Source: a virus. From it: 29,689 bases of DNA. The notes under the pieces are model-generated. The model ran no database searches. It was not told where the DNA came from and was given only the letters and a program-made list of their open reading frames with translations. Location of the stretch: IMG/VR virus record IMGVR_UViG_3300031657_000006, positions 1 through 29,689 of that record. One strand, given 5' to 3'. A program made the position numbers and the translations under genes. Of this stretch, positions 6,938 through 28,953 are shown piece by piece. The first letter of the stretch is position 1; the number at the start of each line of letters is the position of its first letter.

Positions 6938-7153
6938 CTATATCTCTACTTTATCTTTTCTAATGATTTTCCCACTATCTATACTAATGCTCGGTACCAC
7001 AGATTTTATACTCTTTGCTTTATAATTTATCCCCACGTTTGTGCTAGGTTTTAAAGAAATACTTTTTGGTGTCTTAATCGTTGGAGTCTTTATGCTAGGT
7101 AAAGACTTCATGTTTGCCGATGCTGTCTTAACTATCATTCTTGGACATTTCAT
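6938..7153 (-). CDS. MKCP-leader small basic protein (71 aa)
   Basis: The ATG overlaps the stop of the protease gene (ATGA) and follows AGGAGAG, so it starts at MKCPRMIVKTAS rather than at an upstream ATG in the same frame. After the 11-residue leader, the protein is a simple Lys/Ser/Pro/Thr chain with repeated I-K-T-P and no predicted hydrophobic core (pieces such as SIKTPTIKTPKS). It looks disordered and DNA-binding by charge. Its leader ends in KTAS, so cleavage at K-x-A would release a 60-residue basic peptide. It recalls the small basic internal head proteins of T4, though not by sequence family. Direct coupling to the protease gene supports co-assembly. Confidence 0.7.
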   Translation of the reverse strand: MKCPRMIVKTASANMKSLPSIKTPTIKTPKSISLKPSTNVGINYKAKSIKSVVPSISIDSGKIIRKDKVEI

Positions 7154-9159
7154 AATCTCTCCTGGTCTACTTTTGCTATCGTATCCCAAAGCATTGCTAT
7201 TACTCTTGGCTGATCTTCCAATGAATATTTATCCATATTCATGCCTTCGAATCCCATGCCTTGTTTAACCATATCTTCCATGCCTTTTTTAAGCATCCAT
7301 TTTACCGGCATCTTTAACAGTTTACCTATCCCACTTCTGGAAGGTTTATTTGCAAGCATAATACCACCGACAGCAGATGTTCCAGGATTCTTAGCAATAA
7401 ACTTATTAACATTACTAAGCCGTTCACCTCTTCTAGCTCTATTGATTTGATGTTGCCCATATACATATGATAATGGCACCAGCCCTAATGTGGATAATGC
7501 CAATGCCTTGGCTGTATTCAATTTTCCAGCTGTCTTTGGCATCTGATTTTGTTTATACGCATCATACTCATTTTCTACCGATCTCCCAACCTCAGTCAAG
7601 GCCATAGCGCCGGCAACTGACCCCATTAATGCAAACTTATTTTTCCACATAGACTTCATGACATCTACCATAGCTTTACTGCCTGTCACCCTGGCTAACC
7701 CCAAATATGCTGCAATTGCTAGTAATGATGTAGGCAATACATCCATTGCTGAGCTAGGTGGATTTAATGGTGTCTGTATAGCCTCTGCTTTCTTTATCAT
7801 TATAATACGCGATACCATGGGTTTACTATGATAAGATTTCTGACCAATAAATGGTGTAAGTAATTTAATAATATCATCAGAGATATTTTCCTCACATATA
7901 TTATAAGGAGAACGTTCTTCGTTTACAATCTCTTTGATGCGCATCATTCTTTCCACGTCACCATCATCAATAACCATTCCATTTTCTTCATATTCATCAG
8001 CAAGATCTTTCTTCCCTTGGATAACCAGAGTCATCCTTTGAAATTCTTTTGGTTTTGGCGACATACCAAGGCCTATCATCGTAGTTATAACCTTATCCAT
8101 ATCATGTGTTGCTAATTCATCTATAACATCATTAGGCAAATCCGGTTCAGTATCACGTAAAGCAGGAGTTATAAAGTCATTCATATATTTTCTAATCTGT
8201 TTATCATCATCACTTATGACTTCACCTTCTACTTCCTTCTCTATTTCAGCATCTTTATCAGCCTCATTAGTTTTCTCCAGTTTAAGATCTTCCGGATCAG
8301 TGATAGTTTCATCTTCACTAGCGACCTTTGCCAATACAACAGCAGAACGGTCTGCTGGGCGTCCAATAGAGTCTGGACTTGTTAGGTTACTAATATCAAA
8401 AAAAGATGGATACATGTTAACCATAAACACCTTGCGCCCACTAGACATTGTTTCACCTTTGTGCAGCTTTATATGATCACAATATCTTTGAGCGGTTGCC
8501 GCTATACCCTTAGCCCCACCATCTTTGTTAAGCTCTTTAATATATGAAAGGTCTACGCCGTACTTCTTTCCTATATCATGTATTGTCTTCAAATCTTTAG
8601 TCTGAGCAATCTTCTCCATATCACTATTGGGAATTGCATAGAGTTCTCGCCACTTAGGATGGCATATTGAACAAACATCGAAAGACACCTTAGTACCCAT
8701 GGACACCTTAATATCCTTATTCTTAGCTAAGGCATCCCTTGTCCAATCATCTTTTTTAAGATCATATTCTACGATCAGTTCAACCCGTGCCATCTTATTA
8801 TTGAAGAAAGAGAATACCACCCTGCCATATGATTTTTTAGGATCTTTATTTTTATGCAATCTATACCAATATGCATTTTCTACAAATGTTTTATGCCCAT
8901 ACTCTTTCGTATCATTATCTAAAGATTTTGTTGGGAAATAATCACCGTTATTGTTTTGTCCCCAGTTCTCATCGGTCATTGCCGCAATCAACAAATACCC
9001 TTTTCCGTCCTTGGGTTCCATGCTTGCAATAAAATCTTTTATTCCTATAGAGAGATCTTTTTCAGCAGCTTCTTTAAGAAAATTATCCTTTTGAATAAGG
9101 CTTTCTACAATAGTGTTCTCATCATCTGGTTGTTCAATATACTTAATCATTCCTGACAT
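7150..9159 (-). CDS. Prohead protease (S80/T4 gp21-like) with zinc knuckle and C-terminal cargo-like extension
   Basis: A 669-residue protein. Residues about 50-280 match the serine prohead protease type of T4 gp21 (MEROPS S80): N-N-G-D-Y-F-P near 70, a histidine at 102 (RLHKN) and V-S-M-G with serine 153, the likely catalytic His and Ser. It carries putative metal ligands CSIC (163-166) and C-D-H (227-230), seen in related proteases of large phages. The domain ends at KVAS (278-281). A charged linker and a helical part follow. After that comes an internal leader-like segment (MVSRIIMIKKA, 448-458) and a region with hydrophobic helices and basic patches, including KTAGK at 542. Typical prohead proteases are about 200-300 residues, so the C-terminal extension is unusual and may be cut off by the enzyme itself. 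Confidence 0.8.
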   Translation of the reverse strand: MSGMIKYIEQPDDENTIVESLIQKDNFLKEAAEKDLSIGIKDFIASMEPKDGKGYLLIAAMTDENWGQNNNGDYFPTKSLDNDTKEYGHKTFVENAYWYRLHKNKDPKKSYGRVVFSFFNNKMARVELIVEYDLKKDDWTRDALAKNKDIKVSMGTKVSFDVCSICHPKWRELYAIPNSDMEKIAQTKDLKTIHDIGKKYGVDLSYIKELNKDGGAKGIAATAQRYCDHIKLHKGETMSSGRKVFMVNMYPSFFDISNLTSPDSIGRPADRSAVVLAKVASEDETITDPEDLKLEKTNEADKDAEIEKEVEGEVISDDDKQIRKYMNDFITPALRDTEPDLPNDVIDELATHDMDKVITTMIGLGMSPKPKEFQRMTLVIQGKKDLADEYEENGMVIDDGDVERMMRIKEIVNEERSPYNICEENISDDIIKLLTPFIGQKSYHSKPMVSRIIMIKKAEAIQTPLNPPSSAMDVLPTSLLAIAAYLGLARVTGSKAMVDVMKSMWKNKFALMGSVAGAMALTEVGRSVENEYDAYKQNQMPKTAGKLNTAKALALSTLGLVPLSYVYGQHQINRARRGERLSNVNKFIAKNPGTSAVGGIMLANKPSRSGIGKLLKMPVKWMLKKGMEDMVKQGMGFEGMNMDKYSLEDQPRVIAMLWDTIAKVDQERL

Positions 9160-9181
9160 CGCTACTCCTTTTGCCCTTAGG

Positions 9182-9565
9182 CTAAAGCCCTATTCTTCTT
9201 TTAGATTTTGGGCTATTATGGAAAGTTATTTTATTGCGCGTAAATGCATTATACTGTCTATCCATCCCGCCATATCCGTGTTCCTTACCAATTGCTCTTA
9301 GTCTACCTGGAGCTTTTATTTTGTTAACTATATTGGATGTCACCATTCCCAACAGACCACCTACTGCGGGCAATATTAAACTTTCTTTAAATGGTAAAGA
9401 GCGTTTTAGCTTACCAAAGATACTGGCACCCATACCAACTCCTGCACCAATACCAGTACCAACTATTGCAGTTCCCTTAAGCTTTTTGTTATATTCTTTT
9501 TGCATACCCCTATTGTCGGTATTAAGGGCTATGGCTTCTTTAACAATCATCCTTGGACATTTCAT
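9182..9565 (-). CDS. MKCP-leader basic membrane-active-looking protein (127 aa)
   Basis: Starts MKCPRMIVKEAIAL after a strong GGAGGAG ribosome site. Two glycine-rich hydrophobic segments follow (VGTGIGAGVGMGASIF, about 33-48, and LPAVGGLLGMVTSNIV, about 65-80), separated and followed by basic stretches. The C terminus has an aromatic, Lys/Arg-rich tail (MDRQYNAFTRNK). There is no signal peptide pattern beyond the leader and no enzyme motif. The hydrophobic segments are glycine-zipper-like and could insert into a membrane. The gene lies directly upstream of the protease gene in transcription order. The family is unrecognised; a packaged, ejected or membrane role is an inference from the leader and composition. 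Confidence 0.65.
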   Translation of the reverse strand: MKCPRMIVKEAIALNTDNRGMQKEYNKKLKGTAIVGTGIGAGVGMGASIFGKLKRSLPFKESLILPAVGGLLGMVTSNIVNKIKAPGRLRAIGKEHGYGGMDRQYNAFTRNKITFHNSPKSKRRIGL

Positions 9566-9579
9566 AATAAACTCCTCCT

Positions 9580-9870
9580 CTATGCTATAGGTAATGGAGC
9601 TATAGGTAATGGAATTATTACTCTCAACACTAATCCGATAATTATACCAACCGCATCGGCTGTCAAGTCTTTATAACTCATTCCACTGCCACCTATATCA
9701 GCTACTTCCTTACCAATGCCTACCATACTTGCTGTTATATTACCACAAAAATATGTTATCAATATGCACCCTATTAGGTGCCACAGCTTATCTATAGTAG
9801 TCCAACTATCACCAAAACAGATGATCTTGTGCTTCTTACAATACGCAATAAACTTTTCCCATAATTCCAT
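9580..9870 (-). CDS. YfiM/DUF2279-like small membrane protein
   Basis: A 96-residue membrane protein with two or three hydrophobic segments. It shows the order of conserved features of the YfiM (DUF2279) and VanZ-like group: D-K-L-W-H-L near residue 28, G-K-E-V-A-D near 53, and S-Y-K-D-L-T-A-D-A-V-G-I-I-I-G near 65-80. These acidic and histidine residues in a membrane setting suggest a metal or envelope-related function, though the biochemical role of the group is not known to me. It lies in a run of small membrane proteins between the portal and protease genes. The last ten residues are a short repeat, I-A-P-L-P-I-A. The group assignment is from motif memory. Confidence 0.6.
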   Translation of the reverse strand: MELWEKFIAYCKKHKIICFGDSWTTIDKLWHLIGCILITYFCGNITASMVGIGKEVADIGGSGMSYKDLTADAVGIIIGLVLRVIIPLPIAPLPIA

Positions 9871-9883
9871 TATATTCTCCTTA

Positions 9884-10216
9884 TTATAAGTCCTTTTCTT
9901 CTAATGGGACAGATCCTTCCCAATCTTCCTTTGTGGCACTGTCCAATTCCCAAGTTTTTCCAGTTATCTCTTTAGAATCTATAGTACCATAAAATTCTGA
10001 TCTAATATAAAGATCATTATCTTCTATTAATAATTTCATGCGTTCTAATGACAGTTTACCTATAAGCATCTCCGTCCTATCTTGCAAGAATATAAGCTTT
10101 TCCCCTTTAAATGTTATATGACTAAGTATCAAGTCATGAATAATTATATTCTTTCCAGGTTGTTGCATAGCCCTACCTATGGCTTCAAGGATTATGCCGT
10201 TAGTATTCCCATACAT
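9884..10216 (-). CDS. Hypothetical protein (110 aa)
   Basis: A 110-residue acidic soluble protein of alpha/beta appearance, with no membrane segment, cysteine or catalytic motif visible. It starts MYGNTNGIILEAIGRAM; the AGGA before its ATG is unusually close (about three bases), so a nearby alternative start cannot be excluded, though no better one is seen. It lacks the shared leader of its neighbours. It follows the 31-residue leader peptide gene by 26 bases and precedes the YfiM-like gene. I cannot assign a function. Confidence 0.55.
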   Translation of the reverse strand: MYGNTNGIILEAIGRAMQQPGKNIIIHDLILSHITFKGEKLIFLQDRTEMLIGKLSLERMKLLIEDNDLYIRSEFYGTIDSKEITGKTWELDSATKEDWEGSVPLEEKDL

Positions 10217-10242
10217 CCTGAATATACTATTGTTTTTTGTTT

Positions 10243-10338
10243 TTATGATACCAAACGATCCCTGCCTAATGCTTCTAATTCTGGTGTCACTAAAAACCTT
10301 CTTGATGCTTCCTTAACTATCATTCTTGGGCATTTCAT
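10243..10338 (-). CDS. 31-residue MKCP-leader mini-protein
   Basis: A short gene preceded by AAGGAG five bases before the ATG. It encodes the leader MKCPRMIVKEAS followed by only 20 residues (RRFLVTPELEALGRDRLVS) and ends in TAA. The leader is identical at 11 of 11 positions to that of the 127-residue protein, although third codon positions differ, so selection is on the peptide. If cleavage follows K-E-A the product would be a 20-residue peptide. It is too short for most gene finders and is likely to be missed. It fits exactly in the spacer between the 233- and 110-residue genes. No family is recognised. Confidence 0.7.
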   Translation of the reverse strand: MKCPRMIVKEASRRFLVTPELEALGRDRLVS

Positions 10339-10352
10339 AATTTCTCCTTATT

Positions 10353-11054
10353 TTATAAACCAAAAAATTTATAGCCACCATATATACCATGGTAACCATT
10401 TTTACCTTTTCTAAAATTTGACATAGCAGATATAGACCACCTCTCATTTATTATGGCTTGTAGCCCACCAATAACGTCAAACCGATCCACTCCTCCAAAC
10501 GCTCCACTATTTACCAATAACTGAAGCCTATCTTTCATATCTACTTTTTTAGGTGATTTTGTTAATATAGGATCTAGTATCTGCTGGTGCAGCGTCCCAT
10601 CCATTAAAAATTTATATTCCTCTGTCATCCAAACATCCACAACCACGGTTTGAGCAGTTGTAAATCTTAGAGTATCGCCAGTTTCTTCGAATACTATTTT
10701 ATAATCTACCTTTAAAGAATCATCTGTTCCAAGAGTATCTATTAATATCTTTGCCATCTGTGTACCCGGTTCTAATGATGTTGAGTCGGCCAACCATACA
10801 GTATCCATAAGAGTCATAACTATAATATCAGGGTTAGCCTTCAAGGAATCCCATCTAGTCTTCCAAAATTCTGCTAATACTGTCATACCACTAAGAGAAT
10901 CCGTTATAGTTTTAATCTCCGTATCCTTCCCATCAATTACCTCGACCTTAATGTCATTGAGATTAGTGATACGAGTAGCTTGCATAATGTTAATTGCCAC
11001 ACTTCCAACCATAACTGCAAACAATATAATAATAACTTTAACTTGAATACTCAT
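10353..11054 (-). CDS. Membrane-anchored protein, N-terminal TM helix
   Basis: A 233-residue protein with one N-terminal membrane helix (about residues 5-24, VKVIIILFAVMVGSVAI), with no lipobox. A charged, beta-rich domain follows, with repeated Asp/Thr/Leu pieces (DSLKANPDI, DTVWLADS, DTLGTDDS). The C terminus (YHGIYGGYKFFGL) ends in aromatic and glycine residues like the last strand of a small beta barrel. The single anchor with a large outer domain resembles spanin-type or virion anchor proteins, but I cannot place it in a family. It is next to a multi-pass membrane protein and another N-terminally anchored protein, so a lysis or envelope role is a weak possibility. Confidence 0.6.
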   Translation of the reverse strand: MSIQVKVIIILFAVMVGSVAINIMQATRITNLNDIKVEVIDGKDTEIKTITDSLSGMTVLAEFWKTRWDSLKANPDIIVMTLMDTVWLADSTSLEPGTQMAKILIDTLGTDDSLKVDYKIVFEETGDTLRFTTAQTVVVDVWMTEEYKFLMDGTLHQQILDPILTKSPKKVDMKDRLQLLVNSGAFGGVDRFDVIGGLQAIINERWSISAMSNFRKGKNGYHGIYGGYKFFGL

Positions 11055-11059
11055 AATTA

Positions 11060-11473
11060 CTAATCCTTTTGTACACCGTGTCTTTTAACAAACCCTTCAA
11101 TAATTTTGTATAACATCCCTGAAAATGCAAATAATAACCCAGCCACAATCACATAATTCCAAAAACTAGAGACAGCAATATCTGCAGAACCTCTGCTCTC
11201 ATTATATGATGTAAACATATTAGAAATCATTTGGAACTTAAACACAAACGAGATAAGAAATGCATATATTAAGCTGAGCCATCTTTTAACCTCACCAGGC
11301 AATCCAAACTCAAACCATTTCTTAAATGGCTTTAGGAAGAACCAATCACCCCATTTGTTTGGAATTCCCTTGATCATACTACTTGTAGTTTTAGCCAAAG
11401 CATATACACAAACTACAACAACAAAAAACATTGCTATTTCTATGAGAAAAACATTAAACATACTTGGTACCAT
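11060..11473 (-). CDS. Multi-pass membrane protein (holin-like topology possible)
   Basis: A 137-residue protein with three hydrophobic helices: about 7-28 (FLIEIAMFFVVVVCVYALA), about 63-80 (LSLIYAFLISFVFKF) and about 105-125 (NYVIVAGLLFAFSGMLY). The C terminus is basic. I start it at the ATG (11471-11473) behind GGAGG rather than at the upstream GTG in the same frame, which precedes that ribosome site. It lies three genes from the portal in a cluster of membrane proteins. Size and three membrane spans are compatible with a holin, but no endolysin is present in the window and I see no sequence family evidence, so the holin idea is weak. Confidence 0.6.
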   Translation of the reverse strand: MVPSMFNVFLIEIAMFFVVVVCVYALAKTTSSMIKGIPNKWGDWFFLKPFKKWFEFGLPGEVKRWLSLIYAFLISFVFKFQMISNMFTSYNESRGSADIAVSSFWNYVIVAGLLFAFSGMLYKIIEGFVKRHGVQKD

Positions 11474-11494
11474 AAGATCCTCCTTATTCACCAG

Positions 11495-12262: not shown

Positions 12263-12275
12263 TATTAATATTTAT

Positions 12276-12590
12276 CTACCATTTAATTATTATAGCATTA
12301 ACATCTATAGTTGCCGGAGATGCATCACTAGTTTTTATATTAATAATAGACCCAGCATAATCCATACCAGCAGCACAAAATTCCTTAACGTATGGTACAG
12401 TATCCTCTGACATACCCTCATAATAAATAGCATATATTCCTTCAATATTACATCTAAACCCCCTAGCTGGGTACGCAAATGTTTTCCCCGCAAATTCATT
12501 AACATCTTTCCCATACGCTGGTAAATTCACAGCTGTTTTTGGATTTTGTGCTAAATGCCTCTTCATTTTTGTCCAATCAAACATTGCCAT
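12276..12590 (-). CDS. Hypothetical small virion-associated protein (104 aa)
   Basis: Begins MAMFDWTKMKRHL at the ATG seven bases after GGAGG; an in-frame TTG four codons upstream has no ribosome site of its own. The protein is a compact, aromatic and beta-rich 104-residue domain (FAYPARGFRCNIEGIYAIYY in the middle). There are two cysteines and no membrane segment. It sits between the 270-residue protein after the portal and a run of membrane proteins. I do not recognise the family. Position near the portal makes a virion role plausible but unproven. Confidence 0.6.
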   Translation of the reverse strand: MAMFDWTKMKRHLAQNPKTAVNLPAYGKDVNEFAGKTFAYPARGFRCNIEGIYAIYYEGMSEDTVPYVKEFCAAGMDYAGSIINIKTSDASPATIDVNAIIIKW

Positions 12591-16247: not shown

Positions 16248-17660
16248 TTATGCTGGTATTTTTGGCATCAATTTACTTGCAATGTCGGCGGCCCTCATAG
16301 CTTTACTAGATGGTCCGCTATCATCTTTTATCTTCTTAGCACTTAAAAGATTCCCAACAGTTGATGTTTCTAAAGTGTCCCATTTTTTCTGATGAAGTAA
16401 CACCTGCGCTAAATAATAAGGTGTCTTCGCTAAACTAGGATCTATTGTTAATATATCATTGAATATCTTATCAAACTTTTCTGGTTCCACCTGTGCTAAT
16501 TCTGGATAATCTCTGAGTAATTCTTTCTTAGCCTTCTTTCTACCCGCATCTTGTCCTATCGCTGTAGCGGTGTATACCGCTGACCCAACAAGTAATGGTG
16601 GTATTGCATTTTTTAACGCACTTCTAAATATTGATTGTAACATATTAGGCTCTACTTTCTTTCCAGTCTCTTTCATTACGGCTTCTGCTATTGCTTTTGC
16701 GTCAGGAGCTGCATTTTGAACAATCGGTTGTATACGATTATATATATGAGTTACCCCACTTCTTACCGTTCCTGGCCTAAGCCCTACCGCCAACTTCTCA
16801 CCGAGATTACGTAAATGCTGAACTGATGATATTTTGATTCTTTTTTGAAGTGGTTCTATATAATACTCTCCACCCGCTTCCTTGAGCATTCTCATTAATT
16901 TATCATTCATATATGCATATTTAACGGCATCAAAATTAATATCCATCATCTTCTCTGCTTGTTTAGATAACTCAGATGCTTCCACTTCTCTTTCCTCAAA
17001 TTCATCTGGCATATTAAACTGAGTCTCCTGAGGGATAACACCCTCATCCTTTAATCTACCTACTATTTTTGGAAAATCATCGTCTAAGACAGTTTTATTG
17101 GTCTCTCCCCATGTTTTGTTTAATACTTCATAAACATTTTCTAATGTCTCACCATCTTGCAATAATTCTTTAATTGTATTATAAATATTAGTATAAGTAT
17201 CCTCTTGCTCTTGATAAGCACCATTAAGGTTATCTACGTTCTCTTCTGCAGCTGTCTTTAACACTCCTCTCTCATGAGCTCTTGAATTTAAATATTCTTT
17301 CCCAATCTCTTCCGCTGTTTTCTCATTAGACGCTCCTATTTTAACCGGAATCAAGAATTCCATATCAGCCTCTATCATTGCTACCTTCATAACTGTATCA
17401 CTAATATTCTTTATTTTTTCCGACGCATCTAAATGCTTTGCGGCGTCAAATGTAGACATTTTATCTTCTGCCCGTTTCTCTTCCCATTCTAAATGGTTAA
17501 CTTTATGGCATACTGATTCTATCTCATTAGGATTTAACATATTGTTCTCTGCTACTTTTACTAAAGCATCTGTTAGGCTGCAAGGGGTAGCATGAGCATA
17601 TTGTAAGGCTTCCTTTGCTAGTCCTTCTACTTGTAACGACTTCCTATTCTCCCCAAACAT
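16248..17660 (-). CDS. Putative internal/structural protein with several K-x-A sites
   Basis: A 470-residue, mainly helical, charged protein of unrecognised family upstream of the portal gene. It contains many K-x-A motifs (LAKEA near 17, KVAE 35-38, KVAM, EKTAEE, LKTAAEE, SKQAEK), so it looks rich in possible maturation sites. Residues about 345-365 form a short hydrophobic stretch (NAIPPLLVGSAVYTATAIG), followed by a charged region and a helical C-terminal domain (SLAKTPYYLAQVLLHQ). The early part (NPNEIESVCHKVNHLEW) is similar in style to large-phage virion proteins. It starts at an ATG preceded by AAAGGAG. Virion association is inferred from neighbours and motif content. Confidence 0.6.
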   Translation of the reverse strand: MFGENRKSLQVEGLAKEALQYAHATPCSLTDALVKVAENNMLNPNEIESVCHKVNHLEWEEKRAEDKMSTFDAAKHLDASEKIKNISDTVMKVAMIEADMEFLIPVKIGASNEKTAEEIGKEYLNSRAHERGVLKTAAEENVDNLNGAYQEQEDTYTNIYNTIKELLQDGETLENVYEVLNKTWGETNKTVLDDDFPKIVGRLKDEGVIPQETQFNMPDEFEEREVEASELSKQAEKMMDINFDAVKYAYMNDKLMRMLKEAGGEYYIEPLQKRIKISSVQHLRNLGEKLAVGLRPGTVRSGVTHIYNRIQPIVQNAAPDAKAIAEAVMKETGKKVEPNMLQSIFRSALKNAIPPLLVGSAVYTATAIGQDAGRKKAKKELLRDYPELAQVEPEKFDKIFNDILTIDPSLAKTPYYLAQVLLHQKKWDTLETSTVGNLLSAKKIKDDSGPSSKAMRAADIASKLMPKIPA

Positions 17661-17681: not shown

Positions 17682-17864
17682 TTATTTTTCCACAAGCTTA
17701 TCAAACTTGCTAAGAGCATCCTTTGCTACTTTCACATTACCGGTTTCTAAAGCTCTTGCCATACTCTCATCCGCAACTGCTCCAATAATTTCATCCACTT
17801 GTGCTTGTTTTTCGATATTATCAGATGCCACCTTACCTAATCTTCTAATTTCCTTTAGTTCCAT
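17682..17864 (-). CDS. 60-residue protein with KVAS site
   Basis: A small acidic helical protein preceded by AAGGAGG. It carries LGKVAS at residues 9-14 and EKQA at 18-21, the same two variants seen in larger proteins here; cutting at both would leave a 39-residue C-terminal helix (AVADESMARALETGNVK within it). It is the first gene after the terminase and lies beyond a promoter-like spacer. There is no known family. A tiny head-core or scaffold component is possible. Confidence 0.6.
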   Translation of the reverse strand: MELKEIRRLGKVASDNIEKQAQVDEIIGAVADESMARALETGNVKVAKDALSKFDKLVEK

Positions 17865-17941: not shown

Positions 17942-17946
17942 TAACT

Positions 17947-20608: not shown

Positions 20609-22690
20609 CTACTCTGCTCCTGAGTCGTTGCCTCTTATTTCATTTAATAATTTTGTCAGTGCTTTAATAGATCTCATTAATATATTCTCAGGTATATCAT
20701 TTTTACCAATTCTAGATAAAAGCAACAACTGCCCTGTTTTATCAATAATATCTTCGATGTTATATTCTATATCATTTGTATTCCCTATATTATCATTATC
20801 AACATATTCTAACCCGATAAGATCATCAACCAATGATTCTAACTCAGCTTTCTTTAATATTTGACCATCATCCTTAACGGCCTTAGAATATTTTACTACA
20901 TCTTTATTCTTCAGCAATACATACGCAAGCTTCATCCACTCACCTCTGTATTCTTTTAGCGACTCTACGTCCGGGTATTCTTTAAATTCTGGATCAGATG
21001 CAACCTTAGAAATAAGATATCCCTTACCTTTTTGTAAATCTTCAGATACAATATCATCTCTACCCATAAAATGCTGAACATACAGGTCCGCTGCAACCTT
21101 CCCAACTTCTGAAACTATTATTGGATCTTTTTCTTCTTCCTTAATTGCTATATCTACCTTAGTTGGGTTATAGTTACTAGTCGTAAGTATCAATTCTTTG
21201 TCATATTTACCAAACTCATTTTTAAAATATTTACCATAATAATCTCTTGGCTTAATAGATATTTCCCTGTTACCAGGTAATAACATTATCCTATATTGCG
21301 CAGGAATCATCCATAATGGATATGTTGTGTCAGATACAGCTTTATATTGGTTATGCTGCATTTTATTTTTATTTGCCTTAAGAGGTCGATCTACTTGACA
21401 TTTTAACCATAATGACAAAACCTTCTTAGAAGCATACGACTCAACATCTATAACAGATATCTTTTCTCTTTTCTCGCCTAAGGCATAACCCTCAGCTTTA
21501 ATAACCTTATATGGAGAAGACATCTTTCCTCCATCTGCACAAAATACAATATCCTCACCAACATGATCTTGAATATCATCTACACCTTCCAGCTCAAGCC
21601 ATGTACCATCTCTTCCTTTCTCACCTAACATCATATCATCATATTTTATACCATACATCTTATCAAAAATCCAACCTTTTTTCTTATCTGTAACTAATTT
21701 ATCCTCTGCAAGTAATTCGTTTGAATTAAACACGGCCTCAGTACTACCCATGTCTAACGCCATCGAATCAATAATTGCCAAAGGCTTTATATTCCTACTC
21801 GCGGTATTTTCTATTGTAAATATATTAGTGAATACAGGTACTCTTACTATTGAGTCCTTAAAATATATATCATATTCGCCAGGCTCTTCTATATTCTTAA
21901 TCTTAGGAGGATCAGCATCTTTAGGGTTAAAAGATACAAAATCTGCTTCTTTTATTACCCTGCTATTGAGTGCCTTTAATTCTGTTTCTGACACATCTTC
22001 TGCATAATCATGCTTTAGATCTCCACCAACCTTTTTCAATATCACACAACGATAATGGTATGGATTTTCTTCCATCTCTTCCAATGCAACCTTAATGATA
22101 TCCTCTTTCTCATATATTGTGTTAGGACATCTAATGAAACTCTTTACCCTATCAGAGAATACGTCATCTGCCTTATACAGAGAATCGTACACCTCGGCAA
22201 CTTTTTCGGATATCTCTTTTGCCCCTTTGAAATACATGGGGTTACCGTCTTGATCTGCATCCGTTGTTTCAAATAAACTTGTAATAAATTCTGTTTGATC
22301 AGTGATGTCGTCCTCTTCCGGATGCTCTGTCATTACTCCATCTTCCTGACTCTTTAATCCAAGACTTTTTATCTGGCCCATGTCAATTGCAATAACACGC
22401 TTCCCGGCTAATGCTATGTCAGGCTCTTTTAGTTGAAAATCCTCAATGAATATAGGTATAGTAAACGCTATACTGCCATCTCTATACTCAGCACTTCCTA
22501 CCGCACTCCCAACTTCAGGATCCTTAGCTTGAAAGTTTACAGGTCTTATACCTGAAGATAATTCCGGGAATTTATCAATCAAATAATCATTAACCAGCGC
22601 AGACCACTTACTTGCATCTTTTGCCTCAACATTAAGCATTGCTAATTTTACATTACGAAACGGCTTTACTTCTTTAAATAACTTACTCAT
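20609..22690 (-). CDS. Large structural protein of unrecognised family
   Basis: A 693-residue acidic protein. The first part (about 40-110) is beta-rich, with S-A-E-Y-R-D-G-S-I-A-F and F-I-E-D-F-Q-L-K-E-P-D, like large-phage virion proteins. KVAE (163-166), KVAL (200-203), KVAA (531-534) and KVAS (562-565) are candidate processing sites. The middle (about 270-500) is beta-rich with alternating hydrophobic strands (VPVFTNIFTIENT), and the C terminus is helical and acidic. It starts MSKLFKEVKPF after AAAGGAG. The following gene abuts its stop. It lies upstream of the terminase pair; a virion or assembly role is inferred from this position and the repeated K-V-A motif. Confidence 0.6.
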   Translation of the reverse strand: MSKLFKEVKPFRNVKLAMLNVEAKDASKWSALVNDYLIDKFPELSSGIRPVNFQAKDPEVGSAVGSAEYRDGSIAFTIPIFIEDFQLKEPDIALAGKRVIAIDMGQIKSLGLKSQEDGVMTEHPEEDDITDQTEFITSLFETTDADQDGNPMYFKGAKEISEKVAEVYDSLYKADDVFSDRVKSFIRCPNTIYEKEDIIKVALEEMEENPYHYRCVILKKVGGDLKHDYAEDVSETELKALNSRVIKEADFVSFNPKDADPPKIKNIEEPGEYDIYFKDSIVRVPVFTNIFTIENTASRNIKPLAIIDSMALDMGSTEAVFNSNELLAEDKLVTDKKKGWIFDKMYGIKYDDMMLGEKGRDGTWLELEGVDDIQDHVGEDIVFCADGGKMSSPYKVIKAEGYALGEKREKISVIDVESYASKKVLSLWLKCQVDRPLKANKNKMQHNQYKAVSDTTYPLWMIPAQYRIMLLPGNREISIKPRDYYGKYFKNEFGKYDKELILTTSNYNPTKVDIAIKEEEKDPIIVSEVGKVAADLYVQHFMGRDDIVSEDLQKGKGYLISKVASDPEFKEYPDVESLKEYRGEWMKLAYVLLKNKDVVKYSKAVKDDGQILKKAELESLVDDLIGLEYVDNDNIGNTNDIEYNIEDIIDKTGQLLLLSRIGKNDIPENILMRSIKALTKLLNEIRGNDSGAE

Positions 22691-22746: not shown

Positions 22747-23496
22747 TTATGAAAGGATATTTTGAAACCCACCTAATGGCATCTTCTTCTTTGGTGGTAA
22801 TCCTTTTAATCCTCTAATATCTTTTTTCATTTTATACATGTTCCTATCGCGAACGGTCCTACCAATAAAGTTTCCAATTGCTTTAATAGGAGCAGTATTC
22901 TCATCATAGGTATTCCGCTGTATATATCCAGATGCTGTCTTTTCAGGGTTCTCTTTTTCTTTCAAGTCCTTTTTAGCCTCTTTTTGTTTTCTATCTCTTG
23001 TACCAGTAGAATATCCGCCCCAATAGCCTAATGACCCAGGCATAAGCAAATGCCTAAGCAATTTTTCATTAGGTTTTAGTTGGCTTTCATCTATTTCTAC
23101 ATCTTCTGCTGCATGTCTTTTCCCCATTGAATATCCTATCATGCTTGGTATTCCAAACATACCTAAGTCAATCGATGGGCCTATTATCGCTTCTTTTTTC
23201 AGATCCCCTCTTTCTTTCCTTCTTATATTCTTTATCTCACCCTTGCGAGACATATTGCGACCAGTTACTCCACCAACAAGAGCTCCTGTCGCCATCATCG
23301 GGGATATAGCAGCCATGGCTGCCAATGGGTTTCTTTTAAACATCATTGCGCTAAGCAATCCTCCTCCCGCTCCGCCAAGCAAAGCACCTCCTGCTGCACC
23401 ACGGTGTCCAGCTCTATTAACACGCTCAGTAGCCTCTATTTGATTCAAAGTTGAATTCTCATACGCAATCTTTATGATCATTCTTGAACATTTCAT
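22747..23496 (-). CDS. MKCS-leader basic glycine-rich protein (249 aa)
   Basis: Starts MKCSRMIIKIAYEN, a leader variant with Ser for Pro, after AAAGGAG. Two or three glycine/alanine-rich hydrophobic segments follow: about 32-53 (GAAGGALLGGAGGGLLSAMM) and about 58-78 (LAAMAAISPMMATGALVGG). A basic linker, a second hydrophobic patch around 105-120 (IDLGMFGIPSMIGYSMG), and a charged tail with EKTAS are then seen. It is the largest of the leader-bearing proteins. Many Gly and Met residues and a net positive charge suggest membrane insertion or pore formation. It lies at the end of a block of four small genes and before the 693-residue structural gene. Family unrecognised. Confidence 0.65.
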   Translation of the reverse strand: MKCSRMIIKIAYENSTLNQIEATERVNRAGHRGAAGGALLGGAGGGLLSAMMFKRNPLAAMAAISPMMATGALVGGVTGRNMSRKGEIKNIRRKERGDLKKEAIIGPSIDLGMFGIPSMIGYSMGKRHAAEDVEIDESQLKPNEKLLRHLLMPGSLGYWGGYSTGTRDRKQKEAKKDLKEKENPEKTASGYIQRNTYDENTAPIKAIGNFIGRTVRDRNMYKMKKDIRGLKGLPPKKKMPLGGFQNILS

Positions 23497-23561: not shown

Positions 23562-23900
23562 CTATAATACTTTCATTGGATTTTTTGTTACTGCTTTTAA
23601 TGATTTCTTCAAGGGATTTTTAAGACTATTTGCATACATTAAACTAAACGCAGTATTAAGAGGTTTTTTTACCATCTTCTTGCCAACGCCAAGCAATATC
23701 TTACCAACTACCGCTTGTTTTATGCTTCTTGGTATTTTTTTTCTTTTAGTTTTAGCAAAATCTCTTATCTGGTCCATTGTCATACCACCTTCATATATAC
23801 GCTTAGCTGATCCTCTTAACTTACCAGGATCTAGTTCACCTTTTCTTGAAGCATAGGCCATTGCCATGGCGCGCTGTTGATTTTTACTTACCGCTGGAAT
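23562..23900 (-). CDS. DUF3008-like small basic phage protein (likely ATT start)
   Basis: A 112-residue, lysine-rich protein. The segment S-K-N-Q-Q-R-A-M-A-M-A-Y-A-S-R-K-G-E-L, then an Ala-Lys part and D-F-A-K-T-K-R-K-K-I-P, matches the pattern I know from DUF3008-type small phage proteins (S-K-x-Q-Q-R-x-M-x-x-A ... F-A-x-T-K-x-K-x-L-P). The matching region begins 11 codons upstream of the first ATG, with I-P-A-V-S-K. No ATG, GTG or TTG exists there; an ATT at 23898-23900, behind a weak AGGG, would give the expected M-P-A-V-S-K start. The C-terminal half is longer than I expect for the family and basic. DNA-binding or internal head protein is a reasonable guess. Confidence 0.7.
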   Translation of the reverse strand: MPAVSKNQQRAMAMAYASRKGELDPGKLRGSAKRIYEGGMTMDQIRDFAKTKRKKIPRSIKQAVVGKILLGVGKKMVKKPLNTAFSLMYANSLKNPLKKSLKAVTKNPMKVL

Positions 23901-23908
23901 AATATACC

Positions 23909-24304
23909 CTAAGCAGGATTCTTTTTGTACCAGTCTTTTGATGCCATTATAGCTTTTTCTGCATTCTCTTCATTACGTCCAGGAAGAGCTTTATTTTTTA
24001 ATCTATTCACATCTTGTAATGTTTTTGCACCAACTCCCATTAATGCTCCAATGCCACCCCTTCTAATAGCAGTACCAACCCCTCTCGATGGATCTTTTCT
24101 AATTGCCGCTATTGATGCTAATAACCCCACTAACCCGCCTCCTATAGCGGCAGGGCCAACCCCAGTACCCAAGTATGAATCTTCTTCCTTGTTATATATT
24201 TTCTTAGCCTTTGCCATAGATATATTGGGATTTTCTTCTATAGCGTTCTCAAGATCATACCGCATTTCCCCAGCTTTCTTAACTATTACTATTGGACATC
24301 TCAT
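23909..24304 (-). CDS. MRCP-leader basic glycine-rich protein (131 aa)
   Basis: Starts MRCPIVIVKKAGEM, a leader variant, at an ATG overlapping the previous stop (ATGA) with GGAGAG before it. After a charged helix (residues about 16-45), one glycine-rich hydrophobic segment (about 48-66, VGPAAIGGGLVGLLASIAAI) and a basic stretch with a second Gly-rich patch (RRGGIGALMGVGAKT) are seen. The C terminus is helical and mixed in charge (EENAEKAIMASKDWYKK). No enzyme motif is present. It resembles the neighbouring leader-bearing genes in layout though not in sequence. The group is most simply explained as packaged or membrane-directed proteins. Confidence 0.65.
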   Translation of the reverse strand: MRCPIVIVKKAGEMRYDLENAIEENPNISMAKAKKIYNKEEDSYLGTGVGPAAIGGGLVGLLASIAAIRKDPSRGVGTAIRRGGIGALMGVGAKTLQDVNRLKNKALPGRNEENAEKAIMASKDWYKKNPA

Positions 24305-24678
24305 GCTCTCTCCTTTAATCTATTTGTTTCTTTTTCCTGTAAGAATTCTTTTTTAACCTTACTACCGGCACGGTGTGCAAGATACCCTGAGCCTAGTGCA
24401 AGTACCGCTCCTAATCCAGCCATGGTTCTACCACCAACCCTACCCTTTCTCAATAGTGTATGCTGAACTCTATTAAAAGAATATGGGCCAAATCTTGTTA
24501 TGGGAGAAGTATTGTGATGTATTTTAGCCCCACCAGATAATACACCATATAGTCCTGCAGCATGTGGCACCGCCCATGGCCATCCTTTTTTTAATTGTCT
24601 TCCTTTAAGCTTATCACTTTCTGCTGGAGTTAATGTTACTTCTTCAGCCATTTTTATAACATTTTTCGGACATTTCAT
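24301..24678 (-). CDS. MKCP-leader basic protein with C-terminal hydrophobic segment (125 aa)
   Basis: Starts MKCPKNVIKMAEEV after AAGGAG, the first gene of this small-protein block and 80 bases after the sugar cassette. The middle is basic and aromatic (residues about 30-70, including WPWAVPHAAGLYG), and a glycine/alanine-rich hydrophobic helix follows near residues 86-103 (MAGLGAVLALGSGYLAH). The C-terminal end is very basic and acidic alternately (KVKKEFLQEKETNRLKER). No known family. Its stop overlaps the next gene by four bases, and the spacer before it carries TTGACA and TTTATAGAAA-type elements. Confidence 0.65.
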   Translation of the reverse strand: MKCPKNVIKMAEEVTLTPAESDKLKGRQLKKGWPWAVPHAAGLYGVLSGGAKIHHNTSPITRFGPYSFNRVQHTLLRKGRVGGRTMAGLGAVLALGSGYLAHRAGSKVKKEFLQEKETNRLKERA

Positions 24679-24702
24679 TATCTACTCCTTATGAAATCCT
24701 TT

Positions 24703-24752
24703 CTACATTTCTATAAATGAGATATTAATATTTTATAATATCTTTTGTCAAC
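24703..24752 (-). promoter_or_regulatory. Promoter-like spacer before the small-protein block
   Basis: This 80-base spacer holds a minus-strand TTGACA (about 24747-24752) and a TTTATAGAAATGTAG element (about 24703-24717) that resembles sequences at 17896-17920 and 29569-29590. There is no good TATAAT at 17 bases from the TTGACA. A start of transcription for the small-protein block is plausible but unproven. Confidence 0.3.
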
Positions 24753-24758
24753 ATATTA

Positions 24759-25808
24759 TTATTCAAGTAATCCTCGATATAGTTTATCCCACATATCTGC
24801 GACCACCCTATAGCTATGGAAATTATCACAGAATTCTTTTGTTTTACGCGATATTTCTAATAGGTCCGAGTCTAATAACTTCTGGAATGCTCTATAGCAT
24901 GACACTTTATTGCTTGAATGAAAGTATCCCATAGGATGTTTCCTAGTAATCTTCCCATCTGATTGTTTCATTGCATCTCTACATATATGACATATTGTAG
25001 GTATCCCAAATTGCATAGCCTCTAATGCAGAGTTCCCATAGAATCCACATCCTGTTTGATCAAAGAATACATGGGCACTCTTTTTAATTTCTACACATCT
25101 CTCAAATGGCACTTTATATATTAATTCGACCTTTATATTGTATCCGTTCTTCCTTAACTTTTCTATTACAGGGAAGAATATATCATCAGTACCCTTTTTT
25201 TTCCTACTTGATGGTGAGTGTGCGATAACTATTTGTCCGTCAGGTGGGGTAAAAGTATTTTCATGGCTTTCGCTATCAATTGCCTGCTGTGTGTAAATAC
25301 CTTTATACCCATCATAGTTTAATTCGGCAGTCAAAGCAGTCCTTAGGTCTGCTTTCATGTAGTGTTCAAAGCCAAACCATGCCTTAGATATAGCGTGGTT
25401 ATCTAATCCTCTCCTAAATCCACTTCCACCCACAGTTACGATAATTTTCTTATCCTTAGGTATCTTAATATATTTTTGCCAAATACGAGTAGGTGGTTCA
25501 TCACCCTTAAAATGTATAATATCGCAATCATCAACCAACCTTTGTATACGTCTACACGACAAGGCGACGGCTTTATCATATCGTTTTGCTTCATACCTTG
25601 AAGGTCTGCGTCTCCTTATACTTCTACCTTCTGCTCTTTTAACAACACCAGGAATAACCTTAGATAATACGTAATCAGACCCTCTTTTGGATTTCTTTGC
25701 AGTTATAAGAATAATTTTATGTTCAGGGTGATACTGCCTTATCGCGTCTCTTATACGCATACCTGAGCCAGCATAATCTGCCGTACTTAGCATCACTATT
25801 TTAGCCAT
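24759..25808 (-). CDS. GT-B glycosyltransferase (GT4-like)
   Basis: A 349-residue protein with a two-domain GT-B layout. The N-terminal Rossmann half opens AKIVMLSTADYAGSG, and a further strand reads KKIIVTVGGSGFRRG. The C-terminal half has I-A-H-S-P-S-S-R-K-K-K-G-T-D and the donor-binding region G-F-Y-G-N-S-A-L-E-A-M-Q-F-G-I-P-T, which corresponds to the E-x7-E area of GT4 enzymes, with A-M in the middle. I start it at the ATG overlapping the upstream stop as TGATG behind GGAGA; a TTG one codon earlier would add a residue. It would transfer a sugar from a nucleotide-sugar donor. It pairs with the next glycosyltransferase. Confidence 0.8.
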   Translation of the reverse strand: MAKIVMLSTADYAGSGMRIRDAIRQYHPEHKIILITAKKSKRGSDYVLSKVIPGVVKRAEGRSIRRRRPSRYEAKRYDKAVALSCRRIQRLVDDCDIIHFKGDEPPTRIWQKYIKIPKDKKIIVTVGGSGFRRGLDNHAISKAWFGFEHYMKADLRTALTAELNYDGYKGIYTQQAIDSESHENTFTPPDGQIVIAHSPSSRKKKGTDDIFFPVIEKLRKNGYNIKVELIYKVPFERCVEIKKSAHVFFDQTGCGFYGNSALEAMQFGIPTICHICRDAMKQSDGKITRKHPMGYFHSSNKVSCYRAFQKLLDSDLLEISRKTKEFCDNFHSYRVVADMWDKLYRGLLE

Positions 25809-26788
25809 CAACGTCTCCTATAGGTATTAATAACCCCTCTAACTATATTGTCTAACTTATCTGCTGCTTCACCATATGTAAATATATATTCATTAGATTT
25901 TTTACATTTTAATAATTTTTGACATTTTTTAATTAAATCATCACGATCAAAATCTGTAAAAGCTATACATTCTTTACCTCCTCCCCATTCCATTAAAGCG
26001 TCATAGTTACCAGACAACACAGGGATATTTGCAGATAAATAATCATTTAGTTTATTAGGTAATGCTGTATTTGCAACGCCATCATGATTAATTATTATAA
26101 CGCCTATGTCATATTGAGAAAGTTCCGATGTTAAATCATAAGGAGATACAGAATCATGAAAATATACACGAAGTTTTTTGTAGATATCATATTTACTAAC
26201 CGAGGAAGAATATATATGCACATTAATAAAATCTATAGAAGCAATCTTTTTCAATGTTTCAAATATATTTCTATGATGATCATTGATATTAGTTATAGTC
26301 CCTTCATAAACTATGTTTATATACCCATTTAGTAGTCTTGGCATTATATGTTTTGGTAAAAAGTCTGCATGAATTCCATTCCTAAATACACAAGTTGATT
26401 TTACCCCCATACCGTTAGCAATCTTTTCCTGCTTATTGCTAACAAAAGCACAAAGATCAGCAGCCTTCATATGCTCTATTTCTCTTGGTTTATTAGAATT
26501 TATGCTTTTAATGTCTCCAACTGCTTGTATTATTGGACACCCTGCGTTTTTATAAACTATGTCCTTTGACCATGGGTTAAATATTATACAACAATCATAC
26601 TCTTTATAATTTTCACGCCCAGTAACCTTTATCCGTTTAAATTTATCCCAGTCTAACCCTATCCCAAAAGTTCTTGTATATCCAACGGTCACTGTATGGC
26701 CTAATTCTGAAAGAGTCCTAGCCCACTTATATAATCTAATGGCCGGTCTATATTGTATTAAAATAATACTTAATATTTTCTTATCCAT
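25808..26788 (-). CDS. GT-B glycosyltransferase, second of the pair
   Basis: A 326-residue GT-B-type protein. It opens with a hydrophobic strand (KKILSIILIQYRPAIRLYKW) followed by S-E-L-G-H-T-V-T-V, typical of the acceptor half. The second half has Y-E-G-T-I-T-N-I-N-D-H-H-R-N and A-L-P-N-K-L-N-D-Y-L-S-A-N-I-P-V-L-S-G, the pattern of the donor-sugar site in GT4-type enzymes, with P-N-K-L near the usual glutamate region. Acceptor and sugar cannot be read from sequence. The ATG overlaps the LicD-like stop by eight bases and the following transferase overlaps it in turn, so the three are coupled. Confidence 0.8.
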   Translation of the reverse strand: MDKKILSIILIQYRPAIRLYKWARTLSELGHTVTVGYTRTFGIGLDWDKFKRIKVTGRENYKEYDCCIIFNPWSKDIVYKNAGCPIIQAVGDIKSINSNKPREIEHMKAADLCAFVSNKQEKIANGMGVKSTCVFRNGIHADFLPKHIMPRLLNGYINIVYEGTITNINDHHRNIFETLKKIASIDFINVHIYSSSVSKYDIYKKLRVYFHDSVSPYDLTSELSQYDIGVIIINHDGVANTALPNKLNDYLSANIPVLSGNYDALMEWGGGKECIAFTDFDRDDLIKKCQKLLKCKKSNEYIFTYGEAADKLDNIVRGVINTYRRR

Positions 26789-27494
26789 GCAACCTTCTCT
26801 TAATCTTTTCTACACGCTTACATTCATTCATTTTAATAAACTTTAACCTGTGAACAGTATAATACACATCACTAGGGACCTTCCAATCCTCATACCATGT
26901 TTCAAGGCATAGTTTATATTTATTGGGTACCAAAAATTTATGCCCACCGATAACACCTTCTCTCTTCAATGGAAATATCCAATCCTTAGGTATTGATGAA
27001 TAATATCTTTCAGTACTCTTACCGTTGATAACATGCATACGAGGGAAGAAATTATATATACACTGGTGTTCCGAATTATTTGGATCTTCAAATGAAAGAT
27101 AAACATCATAAAACATATTCTTAAATCTTTCTGGAGGGGTTGACATGAATACAGTAAAACGTAAATGTCCCCACAACGATGTGGGCCTAGGGTTTAGTAT
27201 CATTCTATGATTAGGCATTTTCTTATAAACACCATCTATCTCATTTTTTAAAGACTTATAATCATTGTTGCCAGATTTTGCTACTATAGCAACGTCGATA
27301 TCCTTATCATACGATATTAAATCTTTATTCCTAATTCCAGACAGCAAGCCACCATATGACAAAAACATATCATACCCTAATCCATTAAGTTTTTGTTCTA
27401 ACACAACCAAGTTATTAATATAATTTTTCTTTTCCTTAGCAGTTAACTTGTTAAATTTATACCTAACTCTATTCTGCTCGTTACTAACCAACAT
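26781..27494 (-). CDS. LicD/fukutin-like nucleotidyl- or phosphotransferase
   Basis: A 237-residue protein with the LicD-family signature near residues 45-70: Y-G-G-L-L-S-G-I-R, then S-Y-D-K-D-I-D-V-A-I-V. The spaced aspartates (D63, D65, D67) are the metal-binding acidic residues of this nucleotidyltransferase superfamily, which adds phosphocholine or other phospho-groups to glycans. The rest has H-L-R-F-T-V-F and a charged C-terminal end. It is the first of a tightly coupled three-gene glycan cassette. It could modify phage glycoprotein, host surface glycan or a host lipid. Its spacer upstream has a palindrome and no convincing promoter. Confidence 0.8.
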   Translation of the reverse strand: MLVSNEQNRVRYKFNKLTAKEKKNYINNLVVLEQKLNGLGYDMFLSYGGLLSGIRNKDLISYDKDIDVAIVAKSGNNDYKSLKNEIDGVYKKMPNHRMILNPRPTSLWGHLRFTVFMSTPPERFKNMFYDVYLSFEDPNNSEHQCIYNFFPRMHVINGKSTERYYSSIPKDWIFPLKREGVIGGHKFLVPNKYKLCLETWYEDWKVPSDVYYTVHRLKFIKMNECKRVEKIKRRLHG

Positions 27495-27537
27495 TATAGC
27501 CGTCCTCTATTGCTTTCATTTTCTCCAATCAATCAAC

Positions 27538-27553
27538 CATATCTTTAGATATG
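27538..27553. repeat. Short palindrome before the LicD-like gene
   Basis: CATATC and GATATG flank a four-base centre, giving a perfect 6-base-pair inverted repeat in the 76-base spacer between the polyvalent gene and the LicD-like gene. It lacks a following T run on the minus strand, so it is not a terminator. It could be an operator or an mRNA hairpin, or chance in AT-rich DNA. Confidence 0.4.
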
Positions 27554-27570
27554 TATTTCCGAATATCCTG

Positions 27571-28953
27571 CTAAATTAGTTTGCCAGTAATAATAGCTAC
27601 CTTTACCGATTGTCCTTCTAGTGGTTTTTTAGCATTACCATTTTTAGACCACTCCTTAAATTGTTCAACAGTCAAAGAACTAATAGAACCAAGCCCGGTC
27701 CACCCTTTTTCATAATTAGATAGGTATGTTTTCTTAGCTTGTTCCTTGGTTAATGCACCTAAGACACATTTATGTTCATCAAATTTACCATTGAACATCT
27801 GATCTATTACAAATACTAGCTGGCTATCTGGATTATCACCAATAAAAATATCTATTTTGTCACCATCTCTCCCATCCTGTCCACTAGCAAGATACCCATA
27901 ATCATACTTCATTACAATAGACCATTCCTTACCATTACCAGACGTTCCTGATCTAGTTGACCCTCTAGGGTTTTCTATCTTTATAGTAAGCCCATTCCAT
28001 TGAAATGAGCCTTTCTTATAGTTTTCTGCTTCTATTTGTTTTTCTGACGGGTTTGTATTAGTATTTCTTCTAGCCGCAGCAATATCGGTTTTAATACCTG
28101 CTGTTTTAATTATTGCTCTTGGACATTTCATTGCCGTTTTTACGCCAGACATCTTCATTTTAATACTCTTATCAAGACTTATTCTTTTAAGCTTCAGTCT
28201 ACTTTTCTCTGTTGCCGTTAATTCATTTTTCCATTGCGTATAGCTTGCAAGCTCTGCTGGAGTCTCCCCGATCTGATTTCTCTTAGTTGGAGTAACACTT
28301 ATTTGTTTCGGATCTCTAGAATCCCAGAAATTTTCGTTATCAACCATAAAGTTTTCACCTTTATTATTCTTTACTAAATACAGATGCCCATCACCTACAT
28401 CGTCTAAAACTTTATATCCCTTAATATTATTTGGTAATAGTTCTTTAGGTAATCCTATTTGCGATTCACCTATTTCCTTATCCCACGGCCTCGCCTCATG
28501 CACAAGAGGTGGTTGCACCCTTTTAATTTTTGGAATAGAAAATTTAGATATAATATTTCTAAATAATGCCTCTTTTATGATCGTTTTTGGATAATCCATT
28601 GCCTGTTTTTCTTCGTTTCTATTAATAGCAGATCCTATAGCTAATGGCACACCAATCGCACCTGCTCCTACTCCAGCTCTGGTTCCCCAGATCTTCATAG
28701 TCTCATCCTTTATTACTTTATTTATGTTTTTTAAAGTAGTATTTGGTTCATATACAGAAGCCTGTACATTGGTAATATGTTTATTAATAAGTCTTCCTGG
28801 TTTTTTCTCAAATAGTGGATATTGCTTTTTTATAGCCTTTATTGCAAGTTCTGTATCTATTCTATTAGCATGCCCTTTGAGTCCCTTTATTCTTGAACCT
28901 GTTATTAGTTGTTTAAATCTTTTTATTTTAATCTTAGGTATTACTCCACCCAT
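27571..28953 (-). CDS. Polyvalent-type protein with pyrophosphatase-like domain and two internal leader copies
   Basis: A 460-residue protein. Residues about 300-440 match the inorganic-pyrophosphatase-like domain of phage polyvalent proteins: I-E-N-P-R-G-S-T-R-S-G (327-337), D-Y-G-Y-L (351-355), D-G-D-K-I-D-I-F-I-G (363-372) and V-I-D-Q-M near 383. Two leader-like segments lie inside it: M-D-Y-P-K-T-I-I-K-E-A (119-129), preceded by EKQA, and M-K-C-P-R-A-I-I-K-T-A (275-285), preceded by VKTA. Cleavage on both sides would yield three modules. The N-terminal module has a glycine-zipper segment near 90-111 (VGAGAIGV), and the central module (about 130-270) is basic with no named domain. The start has GGAGG. 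Polyvalent proteins are known to be carried in virions and delivered to the host. Confidence 0.82.
   Translation of the reverse strand: MGGVIPKIKIKRFKQLITGSRIKGLKGHANRIDTELAIKAIKKQYPLFEKKPGRLINKHITNVQASVYEPNTTLKNINKVIKDETMKIWGTRAGVGAGAIGVPLAIGSAINRNEEKQAMDYPKTIIKEALFRNIISKFSIPKIKRVQPPLVHEARPWDKEIGESQIGLPKELLPNNIKGYKVLDDVGDGHLYLVKNNKGENFMVDNENFWDSRDPKQISVTPTKRNQIGETPAELASYTQWKNELTATEKSRLKLKRISLDKSIKMKMSGVKTAMKCPRAIIKTAGIKTDIAAARRNTNTNPSEKQIEAENYKKGSFQWNGLTIKIENPRGSTRSGTSGNGKEWSIVMKYDYGYLASGQDGRDGDKIDIFIGDNPDSQLVFVIDQMFNGKFDEHKCVLGALTKEQAKKTYLSNYEKGWTGLGSISSLTVEQFKEWSKNGNAKKPLEGQSVKVAIITGKLI

Follow-up and report, generated by a model that had tools for sequence, protein, structure and literature searches.

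A recurrent leader ending in K-x-A on unrelated proteins of a tailed-phage lineage: a probable capsid-targeting propeptide system with its own cleavage motif

We analysed a 29.7-kb tailed-phage virus record (29,689 nt, IMGVR_UViG_3300031657_000006; the whole stretch is called the window below), in which six reading frames begin with an 11-residue leader, MKCPRxIVKxA, and two more copies are internal to a 460-residue protein. The window also encodes a terminase (PHROG and Pfam matches) and portal and capsid proteins, which were matched to those of Salmonella phage Arash. The six leader ATGs listed in a preliminary description of this stretch were all in place. The leader MKCPRMIVKTA (7121..7153, ATG 7153) is the N-terminus of a 71-residue protein (6938-7153), MKCPRMIVKEA (9533..9565, ATG 9565) that of a 127-residue glycine-zipper protein (9182-9565), MKCSRMIIKIA (23464..23496, ATG 23496) that of a 249-residue protein (22747-23496), MRCPIVIVKKA (24272..24304, ATG 24304) that of a 131-residue glycine-zipper protein (23909-24304), and MKCPKNVIKMA (24646..24678, ATG 24678) that of a 125-residue protein (24301-24678). 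For the remaining one, a second MKCPRMIVKEA (10306..10338, ATG 10338), a correction is required, as its frame has only 31 codons. It holds a perfect leader and then 20 residues, and could be either a very small cargo peptide or what remains of a gene; in the related contig G001, a 77-residue leader protein near the protease gene stands in its place.

The 460-residue protein (27571..28953, minus strand) consists of three modules with the two internal leaders between them, both located where they had been described: MDYPKTIIKEA at residues 119-129 (28567..28599) and MKCPRAIIKTA at residues 275-285 (28099..28131), the latter directly before the last module, an InPase domain (PF18823, 3e-48). All eight strong copies were found on the minus strand, in frame and within open frames. 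Weaker forms had been reported at two further places. One of them is present as MVSRIIMIKKA (7786..7818, minus strand) at residues 448-458 of a prohead protease precursor, before a hydrophobic C-terminal module. The other, at the start of a 134-residue protein (6524-6928), was borne out only in part: the motif end, MILKEA, is there (6911..6928, minus strand, ATG 6928), and the rest of the motif is not.

A motif-model search of the genome had been proposed beforehand. With a profile of the copies, the true sites scored 30-42, whereas 45 dinucleotide-Markov replicas of the genomes gave nothing above the 17 bin. This profile was built partly from the window copies, and the independent test is a scan of the collection: a strict DNA pattern had two matches among 2.9 million other viral contigs, both of them relatives of the window (a near-duplicate with three copies and a 34-kb contig with two). 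Among 129 same-residue codon pairs of the leaders, 55 were synonymous and 74 identical, compared with 60 identical pairs expected from codon usage. The codons thus vary at about the level of codon usage, indicating that selection acts on the leader peptide and not on its DNA, as had been claimed. The bodies behind the leaders, said to be unlike one another, indeed had no mutual similarity within the window, and the DNA upstream of the leaders shared little except a ribosome-binding site.

A search with relaxed leader patterns and the terminase added four contigs of the same lineage; genes in uncultured contigs were delimited with a simple open-reading-frame caller of our own making. G002 is a near-duplicate of the window, and the independent relatives, ranked by terminase identity to it, are G001 (91%), G005 (84%) and G006 (∼65%). 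They carry ∼10, ∼6 and ∼6 leader or leader-like copies, respectively, again on unrelated bodies. Single matches to the relaxed patterns in G003, G004, G007 and G008 are most likely due to chance, as they involve a stop codon, a short frame or no evident gene. A terminase scan of 84,980 prokaryote genomes found no relative and identified no host.

Orthologues in these relatives start with their own versions of the leader: that of the window 71-residue protein with MKCPLLIKRAA in G001, that of the first module of the 249-residue protein with MRCPNMIVKIA in G001, and that of the 125-residue protein with MQCPRLIIKIA in G005. In G001, G005 and G006, the InPase module that is internal in the window is encoded as a protein of its own with the leader at its start. 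Similarly, a leader-like KKIPRSIKQA lies inside a 101-residue DUF3008-type protein of the window (23712..23741, minus strand), and the G001 orthologue starts at that point as MNCPKVILKQA, a 60-residue counterpart of the tail; the boundary residues are KIPRSIKQA in the window and KLPRKIKEA in G005. In the 249-residue protein, a K-E-A (23188..23196, minus strand) marks the junction of two modules, past which the window protein runs on, whereas its G001 counterpart reads KEV and then stops. From these three comparisons we concluded that the leader is a removable module.

A few observations were made in the surroundings of these genes. At 26615 and 27437 of G001 (L031), the leader DNA of two unrelated genes is identical up to the last base of the final codon, which suggests that the leader was copied recently, as a cassette. 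A TnpB/IS605-type protein (assigned by eye) adjoins leader-bearing genes in G005 (6650-7813; L013:4592-5755), and a 235-residue protein with CxxxCxxC near its N-terminus, radical-SAM-like by eye, adjoins the leader-bearing InPase gene of G001 (32711-33418; L031). Three sugar-related genes of the window (24759-27494; two glycosyltransferase-like and one LicD-like, by eye) lie between leader-bearing genes, and genes related to this trio occupy the same place in G001 and G006.

The C-terminal end of the leader can be written as [hydrophobic]-x-K-x-A. When the leaders were removed, K-x-A was still found 296 times in the window and its relatives against 217 expected (z 6.1), whereas nineteen other spacings gave 183-235. 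The excess was concentrated in the protease, at the N-terminus of the capsid protein and in proteins of the head module, the probable scaffold among them. All on the minus strand, these are the probable scaffold of 160 residues directly before the capsid gene (4287..4769; 7 observed versus 2.0 expected), a 318-residue (4766..5722; 10 versus 3.9) and a 232-residue head-module protein (5736..6434; 7 versus 2.1), proteins of 470 (16248..17660; 12 versus 4.6), 60 (17682..17864; 4 versus 1.1) and 693 residues (20609..22690; 11 versus 4.4), and a site at 3723..3731 in the protein homologous to the Arash major capsid protein (8e-14). A G006 protein of 460 residues, placed like the 470-residue protein of the window, had a weak match to the Arash virion protein gp220 (1e-4). 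As a positive control, the same statistic applied to the T4 core proteins recovered their known site, (L/I)xE (31 observed versus 12.9 expected). Given this control and the enrichment in head proteins, we read K-x-A as the probable cleavage motif of the prohead protease of this phage.

The motif extends well beyond this lineage. In 78 loci around the protease, some of which are near-duplicates, K-x-A was the outstanding spacing (4159 versus 2564 expected; other spacings 2210-2527), and with duplicates removed the extended motif outnumbered its mirror image by 865 to 118. The flanks favour L/M/F/I at P5, E/V/T at P4 and S/E/A at P1′, where Pro is fourfold depleted; by their residue preferences, these positions behave like protease subsites, and the I-V-K-x-A of the leader agrees with the flank profile of the clade. 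In G010, a genome of 156 kb, the excess was confined to the structural segment at 60-80 kb, the other seven segments having none worth mention. The leader system is wider than the preliminary description had it: K-x-A is found clade-wide, and the part upstream of it is lineage-specific.

The candidate protease is a precursor of 669 residues (7150..9159, minus strand) with ∼33% identity to its homologues in Arash (9e-24) and three Vibrio phages. Its only profile match was phrog_2774, of unknown function, and the homologues in Arash, D69 and Bacillus phage G matched phrog_18299, head maturation protease. A scan with this protein gave 80 loci, from which a 43-sequence alignment was made. AlphaFold2 modelled residues 1-285 with a mean predicted local distance difference test (pLDDT) of 83.5 using the 43 sequences, as against 34 with a two-sequence alignment. 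The best structural match of the model was T4 gp21 (5jbl_B; Z 9.0, root-mean-square deviation 2.9, 129 residues), followed by the herpesvirus assemblins (Z ∼6-8.6). Foldseek alone gave no match below 0.001 in the PDB, and in BFVD it matched the model to predicted prohead proteases; a sequence-based hidden Markov model search of the PDB, and likewise Pfam, yielded nothing useful for the protease. His102 and Ser153 are invariant in the 43 homologues. We can state with good confidence that the protein is predicted to adopt the T4 gp21/herpesvirus assemblin fold, with a probably catalytic His and Ser.

The alignment and the model place the protease domain at about residues 32-277 (8329..9066, minus strand). 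K-x-A/S was found just before it in 46 of 46 alignable homologues and K-x-A just after it in 45 of 46, mostly with none in the domain itself. In the window these are K-E-A (residues 29-31; 9067..9075, minus strand) and K-V-A (residues 278-280; 8320..8328, minus strand), the predicted N- and C-terminal autocleavage sites. The placement on both sides of the domain fits self-cleavage at both ends, and SPN3US gp245 is already known to cut off its own C-terminal propeptide (PMC10052503). Three related phages have intein-like insertions of ∼360 residues in the protease domain (L131:9968-12901, L132:6309-8993 and L106:10043-12814), which in L131 and L132 are directly after the SMG holding the invariant Ser and in L106 a few residues further; a 925-residue terminase-like protein of L131 (5379-8156) also appears to bear an intein. 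The homologue in Bacillus phage G, gp19 (L051:2704-3606), likewise has K-x-A on both sides of the protease domain, in LVKTAA ahead of it and in LEKVAS behind it, and the motif may thus extend to giant phages of Gram-positive bacteria.

Other lineages of the clade have leaders of their own. When N-termini were compared de novo inside each related locus, 50 leader-sharing pairs with unrelated bodies emerged (some stemming from near-duplicate loci), whereas shuffled N-termini gave 4-11. Most of the recurrent leaders, among them MKYFEKxA, MSNVYLEKIA, TYWELMTKxAA, MLKxLGFxxKA and MDKAxxIFxKLA, end in K-x-A/S, and G010 encodes nine MKYFEK-type proteins, eight of which are in its 20-kb structural segment. 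One protein family has MKCPDVIIKIA in G001 (G001:10022) and MLKELGFEKTA in L062 (L062:260), with the homology beginning exactly at the K of K-x-A (36% identity, 2e-18). This indicates that the address part is exchangeable, while the cut site and the body are kept. Another leader-bearing protein of G010 (72593-73081; L100:7451-7939; MKYFEKQA, 162 residues) has no Pfam match and contains HELVHH; it may be a zinc metalloprotease that is injected.

The bodies themselves have common properties. Net charge was positive in 24 of 24 leader-bearing bodies from four genomes, and a glycine-zipper-like segment was found in 12 of these 24 versus 5 of 120 other proteins; the bodies of the other lineages follow the same trends. 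The recognisable cargo domains are InPase, in the 460-residue protein of the window, and an SNF2-type helicase, which is leader-bearing in G010. Both domains occur in a class of injected polyvalent proteins, and InPase has been proposed to be packaged in virions (PMC5512222). The G010 helicase is homologous to gp217 of Arash (6e-60), of which 38 unique peptides were detected in virions of that phage (PMC10585845). By analogy with the polyvalent class and with gp217, we infer that the cargo is probably injected into the host.

Capsid-targeting propeptides are already known in T4 and, by function, in P1, and longer propeptides in giant phages. In T4, the internal proteins are diverse, with diverged bodies and only the capsid-targeting sequence (CTS) conserved, and this sequence carries internal defence proteins (PMC3012670). 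Like the CTS/gp21 system, the window has a short N-terminal peptide on diverse proteins, which ends in a motif also present in scaffold and capsid, and a protease of the same predicted fold. Unlike in T4, the motif is K-x-A instead of (L/I)xE, the leader sequence is unrelated, the leader also occurs internally between fused modules, and several leaders exist within one clade. As in SPN3US and phiKZ (gp245 family), several head proteins would have propeptides cut at a tripeptide motif by a protease that cleaves itself, all of which is here predicted, and a further likeness is that two SPN3US proteins have 15 N-terminal residues in common (PMC5694885); however, the motif of these phages is A-x-E and most of their propeptides are of 111-254 residues (PMC10052503). 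P1 DarB, which is believed to be injected, likewise has an N-terminal targeting sequence for a head protein: its N-terminal 30 residues suffice to carry a reporter into the head (PMC9024508). P1 differs in that no shared 11-residue leader is known for it from that report, and its capsid protein is cut after Glu. The herpesvirus assemblins resemble the present protease in predicted fold and in having Ala at P1, but the sites of the pseudorabies virus assemblin, YLQA-T and VQA-S (PMC4498786), have no Lys at P3.

Closer comparisons are Arash and the Vibrio phages D69, D148 and D181, which have homologous terminase and protease; in Arash the portal and capsid proteins are homologous also. Several head-region proteins of this phage group have an excess of K-x-A. 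For Arash, cleavage at the motif would give predicted mature N-termini of GAAMSAFVR in the capsid protein gp226, behind LVKEA, of AAAEIDDF in the protease gp222, behind LTKQA, and of SAVDATTEL in gp223, behind MTKQA. To our knowledge, no set of leader-bearing injected proteins exists in herpesviruses. Searches of the available literature turned up no description of K-x-A cleavage or of the MKCPRxIVKxA leader, which is not proof of absence.

The preliminary description had taken this peptide for the capsid-targeting leader of a phage lineage other than that of T4, and as far as sequence can test it, this proposal is supported. The K-x-A with which the leader ends recurs in the scaffold, at the N-terminus of the capsid protein and at the protease borders; the 669-residue protein has a predicted prohead-protease fold; the bodies are basic and often of glycine-zipper type, with an InPase domain among them; and analogous leaders exist in sister lineages. 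We consider it probable, at roughly 0.8, that the leader belongs to a capsid-targeting propeptide system of the T4 kind, in which the cleavage specificity is new and the address peptides differ between lineages.

Several points weigh against this reading. Arash shares the protease and K-x-A, yet no recurrent N-terminal leader was found in it (none was noticed in the head region of D69 either). The K-x-A excess is slight in the whole Arash virion set (153 versus 140), and the association of N-terminal K-x-A with presence in Arash virions (p 0.04) is no evidence, as a K..A control gave the same. The excess is also weak in G006 alone (z 1.2). Many leader-bearing bodies have no known domain, and beyond InPase and SNF2 none is of the polyvalent-class type. 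One G001 leader is degenerate (MKCPAVITGNC), and another leader has Ser at its end (MKCPRMIIKLS). We know of no cultured leader-bearing phage, and both the cleavage after Ala and the targeting to the prohead are deduced from sequence patterns.

The absence of a repeated leader from Arash would also be expected if the leader were a protease-processing propeptide only and the bodies, not the leader, brought the proteins into the head. This fits with K-x-A alone being common to scaffold and capsid, and with some head proteins having only the minimal MILKEA. However, the residues before K-x-A (MKCPR, MKYFE, TYWELMT) are kept across unrelated bodies within a lineage, and cleavage alone needs none of them; we therefore consider this explanation unlikely. 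It is still less probable that the leader is a retained packaging or scaffold-binding tag, with K-x-A as an uncut helix or binding motif. K and A are common in helices and the cut site is a predicted one; but the enrichment exists only at spacing +2 and in the K-to-A direction, Pro is depleted at P1′ with flanks resembling subsites, and the sites flank the protease domain and are rarely inside it. Alternatively, the leader might have no function in assembly and might have spread as a recently copied DNA cassette or with a single gene that duplicated and diverged, which could account for the near-identical leader DNA of the two G001 genes. Most copies, however, differ silently while the peptide stays, the bodies are unrelated and sister lineages have independent leaders with the same end, and we give this possibility very little weight. 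A role as a signal to the host (for secretion or membrane insertion) or in translation, suggested by several hydrophobic and glycine-rich bodies, is scarcely credible for a short, basic leader that lacks a long hydrophobic core, occurs also inside proteins and has variable codons and little shared upstream DNA beyond the ribosome-binding site. On this evidence, pure DNA duplication and the secretion and translation signals were considered and rejected.

Under the capsid-targeting reading, the leader would draw its cargo into the prohead core while the head is being assembled; these proteins are otherwise unrelated, for the most part basic and frequently of glycine-zipper type. The protease would free itself by cutting K-x-A on both sides of its domain, as the conserved sites suggest, and would then act on scaffold, capsid N-terminus and leaders, cutting each of them behind the Ala of [I/L/M/F]-[V/E/T]-K-x-A. 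The mature proteins would remain with the DNA and be injected, and in fused modules the internal leaders would serve as cut sites releasing separate proteins. K-x-A would be common to a large phage clade, with the address part before it varying by lineage and being swapped when a protein family moves between lineages. The novelty lies in the predicted K-x-A specificity over a large clade, and in address peptides that are private to a lineage, are exchanged between lineages and also serve inside fused proteins. We put at about even odds the broader view that a large, mostly uncultured clade combines one protease of herpes-like cleavage after Ala with a private packaging code, in which incoming proteins would acquire the leader of the lineage and internal leaders would give rise to polyproteins cut into injected effectors within the head.

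The proteins that phages inject (anti-restriction, host takeover, membrane channels) vary widely and as a rule cannot be recognised from sequence. If the leader rule is true, they would become readable from their N-termini across a phage clade, recognition becoming a sequence search, and fused proteins could be cut in silico into their mature products. K-x-A would then be another specificity beside the (L/I)xE of T4 and the AxE of giant phages, with Ala at P1 like in herpesviruses, and these results suggest a testable address code between leader and scaffold.

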